Positions 47,347 through 51,336 of a stretch of 64,000 nucleotides of DNA are shown piece after piece (the stretch's first letter is position 1; each line of letters opens with the position of its first letter). This DNA comes from Gilvimarinus polysaccharolyticus (lineage in GTDB: Bacteria; Pseudomonadota; Gammaproteobacteria; Pseudomonadales; Cellvibrionaceae), in contig NZ_LFIJ01000002.1 of NCBI RefSeq assembly GCF_001187555.1, positions 992,545 through 1,056,544 on the forward strand. Reading direction: 5' to 3'. A program made the translations under genes and the position numbers. The notes beneath the pieces were generated by a model. That model did not search any database. It saw only the letters and a list, made by a program, of their open reading frames with translations, and was not told the origin of the DNA.

Positions 47347-47609
47347 ACGGCAACCTGTATTGTCTGCAAGGCATTGAATTTAGGGTTATGTTCCTGCACT
47401 GGTGGCCGATAGCTAAAAATACTACAGCCGACTGCGGGCAATGATTGGTGGCCATTATACCGTTTGATGGCGGGTAGATGGCAGTACCTAACGCGCTTTT
47501 TCCGCGTTAGGGGTACTATTATGATTACAATAGGCTTAATTGCAGTGGGCTTGGGTGCTTTGGCGGTTCGTCGCAACCGATAAAGTCGTGCAGAAGTAAG
47601 GAGATGTGT

Positions 47610-48377
47610 GTGGATTTAGCAACGCTGATCGGGCTAATTGGGGCGGTAGGCCTGATTATTGTTTCGATGTTCATGTCGGGCGAGATAGGCATGTTTGTCA
47701 ATGGCCCGTCACTGGTCATCGTGCTGGGGGGGAGCGTATTTGCGGTAATGGCTAAATTTGGTTTAAGCCATTTTCTAAGTGCGTTTAAAGTGGCAGGAAA
47801 AAGCTTTGTCAACAAAATAGACGAGCCGCTAGATCTGATCGACGAAATAGTAGACCTAGCGGATGCCGCACGCAAAGGCGGATTGCTGTCGTTAGAGGGC
47901 AAGGAGGTCACCAATAATTTTTTGCAAAAAGGCATTCAGCTGTTAGTCGACGGGCACGATCCTGACGTGGTGCGGGTGATGCTGTCTAAAGATCGCTCGT
48001 TAGCCGAGCGGCGACATAATAGTGGCTCGTCTATTTTTGCCGCATTAGGCGATGTCGCACCAGCCATGGGTATGATAGGCACACTGATTGGTTTGGTGGC
48101 GATGCTGGCAAATATGGATGACCCGAAAGCGATTGGCCCGGCGATGGCAGTGGCTCTTTTGACAACCTTGTACGGGGCGATGCTGGCTAATGCGGTGTGC
48201 CTGCCTATTGCCGACAAGCTTAAACTGCGTGCGTCCGAAGAGCATATGATTAAAAGCATGATTATCGATGGCTTGTTGGCGATTCAAGCAGGGCAAAACC
48301 CGCGGGTTATTGACAGCATGTTGCGCACCTATTTGCCCGAGCGTAAGCGTGATGTCGCCGATACGGCGGATAGTTAA
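47610..48377 (+). CDS. pomA: Flagellar motor stator protein PomA
   Basis: 255 residues, four transmembrane helices (about 4-24, 29-49, 150-172, 182-204) with the large cytoplasmic loop that contacts FliG. I use GTG 47610: AAGGAG (47598-47603) sits 6 nt before it, whereas the in-frame ATG at 47604 abuts the ribosome-binding site. The resulting N-terminus DLATLIGL also matches PomA. Forms the Na+-type stator with PomB, encoded 5 nt downstream. Confidence 0.94.
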   Translation: MDLATLIGLIGAVGLIIVSMFMSGEIGMFVNGPSLVIVLGGSVFAVMAKFGLSHFLSAFKVAGKSFVNKIDEPLDLIDEIVDLADAARKGGLLSLEGKEVTNNFLQKGIQLLVDGHDPDVVRVMLSKDRSLAERRHNSGSSIFAALGDVAPAMGMIGTLIGLVAMLANMDDPKAIGPAMAVALLTTLYGAMLANAVCLPIADKLKLRASEEHMIKSMIIDGLLAIQAGQNPRVIDSMLRTYLPERKRDVADTADS

Positions 48378-48382
48378 TACCT

Positions 48383-49375
48383 ATGAATACTGATGACGAA
48401 GATATCGGTGAGGGCTGCGACTGCGCCCCTGGGCTGCCGGCATGGATGGCGACTTTTGCCGACTTGATGGCGCTGTTGATGTGCTTTTTTGTGTTGCTCT
48501 TGTCGTTTTCAGAAATGGACGCCATGAAATTTAAGCGTTTGGCCGGCTCGTTGGCGCAAGCGTTTGGTGTGCAAGCTGAGATATCGGTGAATGAAGTCCC
48601 CAAGGGCACCAGCATAATTGCCCAAGAGTTTAGCCCCGGTAAGCCCGAGCCAACCCCGATCAACGAGATCTTTCAGAGTACCCAGGACATTACCCAAATG
48701 AGTCTGGAGGTGCGCGACTCGCAAGAGTACGATATTGAGCGCGGCGAGCCAGATATGGACGATAGTGCGCGCGAACGGCTGGAGCAGATCATGCAAGAGC
48801 TGGTGGCGCAAACCCGCGCTGATGCGGCCGAGCTGGCAGATAAGCTCAAAGAGCGCATTGCCAATGGCGAACTCGAGGTCGAAACTCGGGGGCGGCAGAT
48901 TATTATTCGTATTCGCGAGAAAGGCTCGTTTGAGTCAGGTACCGCCACCTTAGCGCCAGATTACTACGATGTTATTGATGAGATCCGTGCGGTATTAATG
49001 CTTAAACCCGGACGTATCGAGGTGCAAGGGCACACCGACAATATCCCGATAAGCTCGGCGCGCTTCCGCTCTAACTGGGATCTATCCGCTATGCGCGCCG
49101 CTTCGGTGGCATCGCAGCTGTTGCTGGGAGATTATCTCGACCCGCGTCGTTTTGAGGTGTCGGGCTTTGCTGATACCCGACCATTGGTTAATAACAGTAC
49201 CGGCGACAACCGTGCACGTAACCGTCGGGTTGAGATTGTGATTCGACAGGGCTTAGGGGAAGATCTCGATCAAGCTGATATAGATTTATTAAAAACTCAG
49301 GGTGACGATATCAGTCGTAAGTTAGATGTTGCGCCACAGTACTTGTTTGATTTAGAGCCAGAAGAGGTTTTTTAA
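48383..49375 (+). CDS. pomB: Flagellar motor stator protein PomB
   Basis: 330 residues: short cytoplasmic N-terminus with a Cys pair, one transmembrane helix TFADLMALLMCFFVLLLSFSEMD (about 24-46) carrying the ion-binding Asp27, a periplasmic plug/linker region, and a C-terminal OmpA-like peptidoglycan-binding domain (VQGHTDNIPISSARFRSNWDLS). The transmembrane sequence is of the Vibrio PomB Na+ type rather than H+ MotB. No good ribosome-binding site; the 5-nt gap to pomA suggests translational coupling. Confidence 0.95.
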   Translation: MNTDDEDIGEGCDCAPGLPAWMATFADLMALLMCFFVLLLSFSEMDAMKFKRLAGSLAQAFGVQAEISVNEVPKGTSIIAQEFSPGKPEPTPINEIFQSTQDITQMSLEVRDSQEYDIERGEPDMDDSARERLEQIMQELVAQTRADAAELADKLKERIANGELEVETRGRQIIIRIREKGSFESGTATLAPDYYDVIDEIRAVLMLKPGRIEVQGHTDNIPISSARFRSNWDLSAMRAASVASQLLLGDYLDPRRFEVSGFADTRPLVNNSTGDNRARNRRVEIVIRQGLGEDLDQADIDLLKTQGDDISRKLDVAPQYLFDLEPEEVF

Positions 49376-49381
49376 AACTTT

Positions 49382-49399
49382 TGTACGACATCTCTTACA
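49382..49399 (+). promoter_or_regulatory. GacA-box-like upstream activating sequence
   Basis: TGTACG-N6-CTTACA (49382-49387 and 49394-49399), one mismatch from the TGTAAG-N6-CTTACA site bound by GacA upstream of rsmX/Y/Z genes. Its centre is about 65 nt before the inferred RNA start, as in those genes. A -10-like CATAAT is at 49444-49449. Confidence 0.7.
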
Positions 49400-49455
49400 A
49401 GAATATGTGACAAAGACGACTATTGCCGCTGGGTGAAGAGGCTCATAATACAACA

Positions 49456-49643
49456 CTGAACACGAGCATAGGGACTATGGCGGTTCAGAGGCAGTATACG
49501 GAATGTCATAGGGATTATGGCCTAACAAGGATATCCACACGGATTGTGAGGCAAGGAATAGACGGATCTCGCCAATTACTGAGCCCAAGGCTGGTCTCCA
49601 TCCTGTAAAAACCGCAGCAAGCCCCCTTGCTGCGGTTTTTTTT
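49456..49643 (+). ncRNA. Probable CsrB/RsmZ-type CsrA-sequestering sRNA
   Basis: About 188-nt transcript inferred from CATAAT (49444-49449) to the T-tract at 49643. It contains seven GGA motifs at 49472, 49500, 49512, 49529, 49541, 49555 and 49564. Two lie as the loop GGA on near-identical hairpins, CATAG-GGA-CTATG (49467-49479) and CATAG-GGA-TTATG (49507-49519); a third lies in a CACA/TGTG hairpin loop (49536-49548). CTGAAC (49456-49461) pairs with GTTCAG (49483-49488) to enclose the first. A terminator ends it and no reading frame with a ribosome-binding site fits. Such RNAs titrate CsrA/RsmA and are driven by GacS/GacA. The 5' end is an estimate. Confidence 0.75.
49610..49643 (+). terminator. 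sRNA terminator
   Basis: Perfect 12-bp stem AACCGCAGCAAG (49610-49621) with its complement (49626-49637), loop CCCC, and a run of eight Ts to 49643. The remaining 286 nt before the MFS gene show nothing I can assign. Confidence 0.95.
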
Positions 49644-49929
49644 CGTTTTGACGGGGAGCATCAGCTCTTCGCTTAGTCTCCAGTTAAGCCTACTCTTTTT
49701 ACTCAGATATTTAAGCCGTCTGCCATCCCCGCTATTTTTGTGATTATGTTTTCATCTCGATTAGTCGTGCATCTTAAGCGGTTTAATGTGTATCGAGAAA
49801 AGACGGGTAAAGCCGGGCTTAATTGTCAGCCATTGTGTTTTAATACGATGACTCCCGATGTTTTACCACGGCTTTTTGTTATCGCGTACTCGTGCGCGAT
49901 ACGGTTGTTTTTTGTAAATAGGCCTCTAA

Positions 49930-51336
49930 TTGAACACAAACTCTCCCGCAGTCGCTCAGCTCGCACCTCCTTGGCGAGTGTTGGTGATGGTATGCCTTGG
50001 TGCCTTTGTGGCGCCATTGGGTATGGCATCGGTGAATGTGGCGATCCCGGCGCTGGCCGAAGATCTAGGCGCGAACGCGGTGTTGGTTAGCTGGATTCCC
50101 ACTGTGGTGCTTATTAGCAACATTATGTTTATGTTGCCTGCAGGTAAGTGTGCCGATTTATGGGGGCGTAAACGGCTGTTCTTTTTCGGTGTGTGTATCA
50201 ATGCCGGTGCCAGCGCCGTGGCTTTTTTTGCCCAGTCTATCGAGGCGCTGCTGGTATTACGGTTTATTCAGGGTATTGGCTCGGCAATGATGTTTGCCAC
50301 CAGTATGGCACTGCTTATCTCGGTGTTTCCCGCCGACAAGCGCGGCCTGCCACTGGGGCTTAATGCCGCGTGTATTTATTTGGGGTTAACCTTAGCGCCG
50401 GCTCTGGGGGGATGGGTGACAGAGGCTTGGGGCTGGCGCCATGTGTTTTTATTGCCGCTACCTATTGCTGTGGTGGTGCTTGCTATCTTAACGCGAGTGC
50501 CCGGTGAGTGGCGCGGCCACAGTAAAGATCGATTTGATTGGCGTGGGGCGATATTATTTGCCGCGGTCGCCGTGAGTTTGGCGTTGGGCTTAGCCGGAAT
50601 CCCAGGGCTGGGGCATGTAGCCTTGGTGGCGCTTGCCTTGGTTTTGCTTGCGCTGTTTGTACGCATGCAAGCGCGCGCCCAAACGCCGTTGATTCGGGTG
50701 CAGATGTTTCGCGAATCAAAGTTATTTTCTATGTCGCTGACTACCGCATCGCTTATGTATGCCAGTAGTTACCCACTGGGCTTTATGCTCAGTTTGTATT
50801 TGCAATATGTACGTGGCTACAGCGCCGGTGAGGCGGGCCAGATTATGTTGGTACAGGCTTTGACGATGGCTTGTGTGGCACCGGTAGCCGGACGTTTGTC
50901 AGACTTCTTTCCTGCGCGCTGGCTGGCCAGTGCCGGCTGCGCTTGCACTTTGGTAGGCTTTGCGTTGCTTAGCACGTTAGATGCTACCACCGAGCGGCTG
51001 GATATTATGTTGGCATTGCTGCTGGTGGGTTTTGGCTTTGGCTTTTTCTCAAGCCCCAACAATCATGTTGTTATGCACTCGGCCGCAGCTCACGAGGTGG
51101 GGGTGGCGGCGGCAACGCTTAACTTGGCGCGGGTGATGGGTAACTTGGTCGGCATGAGTATGGTGAACTTGTTTGTGCACTGGCATTTGGGCGAGCGCCC
51201 TATGAGCAGTGCGCTTGCCGAGCCTTTACTGTTAACGTTTCATCAGGCAATAAACTTGGCAATGGGCTTTTTAGTATTAGCTACGGTTCTGTCGTTGCTG
51301 CGGGGTCGGACACACGCGGCCATGTTGCCCAAGTAA
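49930..51336 (+). CDS. MFS drug-efflux-type transporter (DHA2-like)
   Basis: 468 residues, about 14 membrane helices. Motif A GKCADLWGRKRLFF (about 75-88) between helices 2 and 3 and the helix-5 GWVTEAWGWRHVF motif place it in the EmrB/QacA-like DHA2 group. The likely role is proton-driven efflux of a hydrophobic compound; no membrane-fusion partner is adjacent. The start is TTG 49930 with only a weak AGG upstream. ATG 49987 would cut into the first helix, so the longer form is more likely. Confidence 0.88.
   Translation: MNTNSPAVAQLAPPWRVLVMVCLGAFVAPLGMASVNVAIPALAEDLGANAVLVSWIPTVVLISNIMFMLPAGKCADLWGRKRLFFFGVCINAGASAVAFFAQSIEALLVLRFIQGIGSAMMFATSMALLISVFPADKRGLPLGLNAACIYLGLTLAPALGGWVTEAWGWRHVFLLPLPIAVVVLAILTRVPGEWRGHSKDRFDWRGAILFAAVAVSLALGLAGIPGLGHVALVALALVLLALFVRMQARAQTPLIRVQMFRESKLFSMSLTTASLMYASSYPLGFMLSLYLQYVRGYSAGEAGQIMLVQALTMACVAPVAGRLSDFFPARWLASAGCACTLVGFALLSTLDATTERLDIMLALLLVGFGFGFFSSPNNHVVMHSAAAHEVGVAAATLNLARVMGNLVGMSMVNLFVHWHLGERPMSSALAEPLLLTFHQAINLAMGFLVLATVLSLLRGRTHAAMLPK

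Follow-up and report, generated by a model that had tools for sequence, protein, structure and literature searches.

The analysed window is a 64 kb stretch of DNA from the genus Gilvimarinus. On its plus strand, the stator genes pomA (47604-48377, MotA_ExbB family) and pomB (48383-49375, MotB_plug and OmpA domains) are followed by a predicted small RNA of the CsrB/RsmZ type at 49456-49643, the start of which was derived from a -10 element. The next gene on the same strand encodes an MFS transporter (49930-51336, listed start codon uncertain).

Promoter, motifs and structure of the RNA

An 18-base palindrome resembling a GacA box, TGTACGACATCTCTTACA, lies at 49382-49399 (+) and starts 7 bases past the pomB stop codon; counterparts are present in 7 of 7 aligned Gilvimarinus loci. 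This box, which the earlier note does not mention, is the strongest evidence at the locus. It fits the published GacA consensus TGTAAGN6CTTACA (PMC11837529) and likewise the site proposed for GacA at Pf1, a Csr RNA of Pseudoalteromonas (PMC9927453). A probable -10 element, CATAAT, follows at 49444-49449 (+), 44 bases after the end of the box, and the distance from box start to CATAAT start is exactly 62 bases in all seven aligned loci. A GacA/UvrY palindrome upstream of the promoter, as is typical for the CsrB/RsmZ class, is thus found at this locus; a two-hexamer promoter was not detected here by a simple sigma-70 scan. Our box consensus was written after the Gilvimarinus boxes had been seen. 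Within this genome the search pattern has 72 forward matches versus 51 for the control, and because the control is matched so often, a single box in this genome is weak by itself. The own-genome boxes we report are those among the matches listed, and others may exist. One of them, at C1:1123770, was set aside as a promoter, as it sits within a coding frame.

The earlier note had pointed out seven GGA motifs within about 95 nt, and this count is exact: they start at 49472, 49500, 49512, 49529, 49541, 49555 and 49564, spanning 95 nt up to 49566, and all seven have the form ANGGA. The bare GGA count is ordinary (seven or more in 462 of 5000 dinucleotide shuffles) and was dropped as evidence for a sponge RNA. 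Seven ANGGA were reached in none of 5000 dinucleotide shuffles, which average 1.26. On both strands of the 64 kb, the density of ANGGA peaks at the sRNA locus with six per 95-nt window, the next best value being three. The RNA therefore carries the several ANGGA-type sites that mark the CsrB/RsmZ class.

The 5' part (49456-49519, +) consists of the stem CTGAAC/GTTCAG, with arms at 49456 and 49483, and two hairpins, CATAG-GGA-CTATG at 49467-49479 (CATAGGGACTATG at 49467) and CATAG-GGA-TTATG at 49507-49519 (CATAGGGATTATG at 49507). Hairpin H1, CACA-CGGAT-TGTG (49536-49548, +; CACACGGATTGTG at 49536), holds a GGA in its loop and has homologous GGA hairpins in many relatives. All of these motifs lie where they had originally been described. 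Element H2 (49550-49573, +), GGC ... GCC with two ANGGA, is strongly conserved across the genus and recognisable in 20 of the 29 homologues scored. The loop of hairpin H3 (49581-49598, +) lacks GGA in Gilvimarinus (0 of 8 copies), whereas each of the 12 scored copies from outside this genus has one. The conserved element ATCCTGTAA (49600-49608, +) precedes the intrinsic terminator and its T run (49607-49643, +). A terminator with T run had been predicted as a 12-bp GC stem with eight Ts; terminator and T run stand, while the scan counts 15 pairs, 7 of them G-C, at 49607-49640.

At the 5' end, only two of the seven aligned Gilvimarinus copies, those of the present species and G. agarilyticus, have a segment of about 72 nt; the eighth copy, in G. 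algae, also lacks it. Judging from these alignments, the conspicuous CATAG-GGA hairpins are a lineage-specific addition and not part of the conserved core. Missing conservation of the GGA hairpins had been named as an observation that would speak against the RNA; it applies to the two CATAG hairpins, yet H1-type hairpins do occur in relatives.

Folding gave a mixed picture. The whole RNA has z = -1.87, with 9 of 200 shuffles folding as well. Most of the scored homologues allow GGA-loop hairpins to be drawn; the minimum-energy fold here keeps the terminator and the first GGA hairpin but not hairpins 2 and 3 as drawn earlier. The terminator stem covaries among relatives, both sides having changed in 7 of 8 pairs, and alone exceeds the controls; on a sequence-based alignment, covariation of H1 and H3 alone is not clearly above them. 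Stem tests on single sequences gave Fisher p values of 0.046 for H1, where the test is harsh because the loop GGA was demanded of the real sequence only, and 1.3e-5 for H3; they cover 20 of the 29 homologues, the other 9 being too divergent for scoring of H1, H2 or H3. Since the covariation of H1 and H3 does not clearly beat the controls, the exact structure of the predicted GGA hairpins is less sure than the motifs themselves.

The earlier note saw no translated frame that fits the region. The longest frame with an ATG, GTG or TTG start and a stop inside the RNA has 43 codons here and 46 in G. agarilyticus, and 0-13 codons in the other six Gilvimarinus copies; no coding frame is conserved across the eight. 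Like the members of the CsrB/RsmZ class, the RNA is thus noncoding and ends in an intrinsic terminator. A plasmid search returned three short matches and nothing more.

Conservation and genomic context in relatives

DNA similarity at the locus is clear in 6 of the 7 other Gilvimarinus genomes. The covariance model R1 recovers a copy in a genome outside its training set (G001, E 1.1e-28), and with it the RNA is present in 8 of 8 Gilvimarinus genomes searched. Alignment of the pomB-downstream regions, as the earlier note had proposed, confirmed that RNA, box and -10 element are kept in 7 of 7 Gilvimarinus loci.

For a wider comparison we used the best 80 of 155 places encoding a PomB relative, as found by a PomB alignment search, and called a box at 16 or more of 18 positions within 900 bases downstream of pomB. 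By these named loci, the genus of the present DNA is Gilvimarinus. A box occurs in 21 of the 80 loci, six of them from Gilvimarinus (15 of 74 without this genus), versus 0 of 80 for the reversed-consensus control. The remainder of the 80 loci, 457,096 bases, contains a single box, probably the one 2.27 kb past pomB in Exilibacterium, which is followed by the RNA. No box was found behind pomB in L111-L151, mostly more distant lineages.

Across 29 extracted homologues, 133 ANGGA were observed and 28.6 expected; each homologue has 3-8 ANGGA, and its own count is reached by at most 21 of 400 shuffles. Measured from the chosen start through the T run, the 27 without the 5' extension are 112-146 nt long. 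L046 and L047 nearly duplicate each other; L092 and L093 were kept with box scores of 14 and 15, while L084, L102 and L107 (the last with a box score of 15) are boxed and were left out as longer or different. Less similar box-bearing, GGA-rich RNAs lie behind pomB in L080, L081, L084, L091, L102 and L106. In L084 and L102 (Pseudomaricurvus) the boxed RNAs, longer or differently built, are located 697 and 583 bases past pomB, that of L084 with 14 GGA in 170 bases. A further GGA-dense stretch, perhaps a tandem second sponge RNA, is seen just past the RNA terminator in L092, L093 and L103. The terminator loop carries a GGA in at least eight relatives (L046, L053, L068, L082, L087, L091, L103 and L106), where CsrA may also bind at the terminator.

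The same homologues bear on a different mode of action, in which the RNA works mainly through base pairing of its 3' ATCCTG with ribosome-binding sites, the GGA sites being of secondary importance. Right before the terminator, 29 of 29 homologues have ATCCTG or a near variant, although their extraction used CCTG as an anchor. Ribosome-binding sites of the AGGA type are complementary to this element, as is the ACAGGAU contained in the CsrA SELEX consensus (PMC7652899). Against such a mechanism stands the ANGGA excess in the homologues, and in many cases ATCCTG is predicted to pair with a GGA of the same RNA; we regard this mode of action as very improbable. Somewhat less improbable, though still doubtful, is a dual-function RNA that would be a GacA-activated CsrA sponge and in addition carry a conserved 3' ATCCTGT, the complement of ACAGGAU, the ideal site for CsrA. 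If this were true, ATCCTGT could close the RNA's own GGA sites, with the CsrA load switching the fold; or it could pair with CsrA-type ribosome-binding sites, so that the RNA both removes CsrA and occupies its sites.

Independently of pomB, the covariance model R2 was built from 20 RNAs (alignment A5) with promoters excluded; L044, L068, L080, L081, L091, L092, L093, L094 and L106 belong to the 29 homologues and were left out of it. Of 390 genomes from the order, 47 give an R2 match at E <= 0.05. The 17 matches within the same family all have E <= 6.1e-6, and among the genomes listed at least one of this family has no match. The best 30 of the 47 matches (17 from the family, 13 others) were followed up as loci. 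All 17 family loci have a box, 15 of them within 102 bases upstream; in the present genome and G. agarilyticus it lies further upstream because of the 5' extension. A box also accompanies 11 of 11 family matches outside the training set, which do not count as 11 independent events: L202 and L204 coincide with L044 and L068, the boxes of which had already been seen, the box of L201 is identical in letters to that of L091, and five share one box sequence. The 13 weaker matches in other families have no box (best 10-12 of 18) and were rejected as chance terminators, one of them with a CCTGTRA element. Twelve out-of-family matches of R1 were likewise discarded as chance terminators (best box scores 10-14); some of these stand behind sequence which, inspected by eye, looks like 5S rRNA or tRNA. 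Thirteen loci lack a box behind pomB (L078, L079, L083, L088, L090, L097, L098, L101, L104, L105, L108, L109 and L110), and searching their genomes with R2 gave nothing below E = 0.002.

The neighbouring genes differ between genera. A relative of the MFS gene lies 3' of the RNA in 7 of 7 aligned Gilvimarinus loci, and an HNH gene (Pfam) in 16 of 19 loci examined from other genera. The RNA could in principle be a cis-acting leader or attenuator of the MFS gene at 49930, with CsrA controlling the transporter via the GGA sites, as it lies upstream on the same strand and is followed by an MFS relative throughout the aligned Gilvimarinus loci. However, the terminator ends 287 bases short of the MFS frame, the RNA has its own box and -10 element, and other genera have the HNH gene in this place, which makes the leader hardly credible.

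Upstream, a PilZ-type gene was matched in 44 of 80 pomB loci and in 0 of 6 Gilvimarinus loci. In relatives this gene sits between pomB and the RNA, for example at L095:3993-4541 (the Pfam assignment refers to L095 only). Nine loci of one genus (g4) have kept the RNA and the downstream HNH gene, with no pomB within 1.5 kb. These arrangements speak against an RNA processed from the 3'-UTR of the pomB stator mRNA instead of a separate gene. The box starting 7 bases past the pomB stop with no gene between would suit such an origin, but a conserved box and -10 element precede the RNA, the PilZ gene intervenes in relatives and the g4 loci lack a nearby pomB; we give it very little weight.

The older gene order was likely pomA-pomB-pilZ-RNA-HNH. 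CsrA regulons commonly include motility, and the place of the RNA behind pomAB had been taken as a link to the motility-versus-attachment switch. This proposal builds on position only, is not supported and is weakened by the nine g4 loci without pomB within 1.5 kb. Since the g4 RNAs keep the HNH gene without a nearby pomB, the place behind the stator genes is more plausibly a matter of inherited gene order than a sign of function. A trans-acting sponge needs no local target.

The Csr/Gac system and known regulatory RNAs

CsrA has one match in the genome, above the family cut-off. The GacA candidate has UvrY/SirA/GacA as its best family with 256 bits, below the curated cut-off of 280; it is followed by uvrC and then by a gene which we take to be pgsA-like. 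A BarA/GacS-like kinase matches nearly the whole model with 713.6 bits, below the curated cut-off of 890. As in other organisms with RNAs of the CsrB/RsmZ class, CsrA, GacA and GacS thus occur in the same genome, the latter two as best family hits under the cut-off.

Elsewhere in the genome we found another putative RNA resembling CsrB, 346 nt long, with 16 GGA and a GacA-type box of its own (L039:1808-2153 = G000:C1:448307-448652, minus strand), adjoining a presumably LOG/PpnN-like gene. DNA similarity recovers it in 6 of 8 Gilvimarinus genomes, where a box is always followed by 14-21 GGA, and the 346-nt RNA has no Rfam match. Gilvimarinus appears to run CsrA with one long and one short sponge RNA. 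A further box, TGTGCGATATCTCTTACA (L040:2284-2301 = G000:C1:936283-936300), lies upstream of a gene for a short helix-hairpin-helix protein, which we presume to be comEA; by its box this gene is a candidate direct GacA target.

The test by Rfam models proposed in the earlier note came out negative. CsrB, CsrC, RsmX, RsmY and RsmZ have no match at gathering scores across the window; at lax thresholds there is none up to E = 10 in 49350-49950, and nine loci, seven of them Gilvimarinus copies, give none up to E = 1. The RNA nevertheless resembles RsmX, RsmY and RsmZ of Pseudomonas in being short, with several GGA and a palindromic GacA upstream sequence, and differs from them in lacking an Rfam match to these families. 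Their gene places also differ from the neighbours of the present RNA. RsmX-2 of P. brassicacearum has 110 nt, and the GGA counts are 6 for RsmX-1 and RsmX-2, 7 for RsmY and 10 for RsmZ (PMC7911923). CsrB and CsrC of enterobacteria and Pf1 of Pseudoalteromonas follow the same logic as the present RNA but are richer in GGA, and the 346-nt RNA with 16 GGA resembles them more. Pf1 has 21 GGA, and its putative site for GacA, CGTGAGACATCTCTTACA, is one base pattern off the boxes found here (PMC9927453). RgsA of Pseudomonas is a GacA-dependent small RNA (PMC2375449); in contrast to the present RNA with seven GGA and a palindrome, it has one GGA, lacks the GacA palindrome and cannot relieve RsmA repression.

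Our literature search, which covered sources other than subscription papers, found none pairing Cellvibrionaceae with CsrA or Gilvimarinus with sRNA. For Teredinibacter and GacA it returned one paper, the T. turnerae genome report, whose quorum-sensing section names GacS, GacA and two CsrA but no RNA gene (PMC2699552). Among the matches listed by broader searches there is no such RNA, and Cellvibrio, Saccharophagus and Teredinibacter are absent from the main text of the InvenireSRNA paper. The predicted RNA represents a new sequence family, while the kind of regulator is a familiar one.

A probable GacA-activated CsrA sponge

The motifs, box, -10 element, terminator and conservation, as well as csrA, gacA beside uvrC and the BarA/GacS-like kinase, can be read directly from the DNA; transcription, GacA binding, CsrA binding, sequestration and all downstream effects are what we infer from them. 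The best reading, to which we assign a probability of roughly 0.9, is that the locus would be a gene for a trans-acting sRNA of the Rsm/Csr type, a GacA-activated CsrA sponge. The original proposal of a CsrB/RsmZ-type sRNA is supported and strengthened by the box and -10 element, the copies in 8 of 8 Gilvimarinus genomes and many relatives, the ANGGA excess, and csrA, gacA and the kinase. Phosphorylated GacA would bind the palindrome at 49382-49399 and activate a promoter in which CATAAT is the one clear core element. Transcription from near 49456 to the terminator would yield an RNA of about 188 nt, which would offer CsrA several ANGGA sites and bind more than one CsrA dimer. By this capture, CsrA-repressed mRNAs would be freed. 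The short RNA would work beside the longer CsrB-like RNA, which has the same type of box.

The reading of the RNA as a CsrA sponge draws on the ANGGA excess here and in 29 homologues, the fixed spacing of box and -10 element in 7 of 7 loci and the boxes behind pomB as compared with the reversed control. The family hits of R2, all of them boxed, argue in the same direction, as do the different downstream genes by genus, the company of CsrA, gacA-uvrC and the kinase, the second boxed RNA and the fit to the consensus. Against it count the ordinary number of GGA, the z of -1.87, the weak covariation of H1 and H3 and the missing sigma-70 hit, together with the scores of GacA and kinase below their cut-offs, the absence of an Rfam match and several relatives without a convincing copy.

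The family of these relatives consists mostly of marine, polysaccharide-degrading bacteria. For this family, the RNA is a concrete candidate for an output of Gac signalling. Covariance model and box consensus together recover Rsm-type RNAs that Rfam misses, and the 5' extension indicates that short sponges can change size by gaining GGA hairpins.
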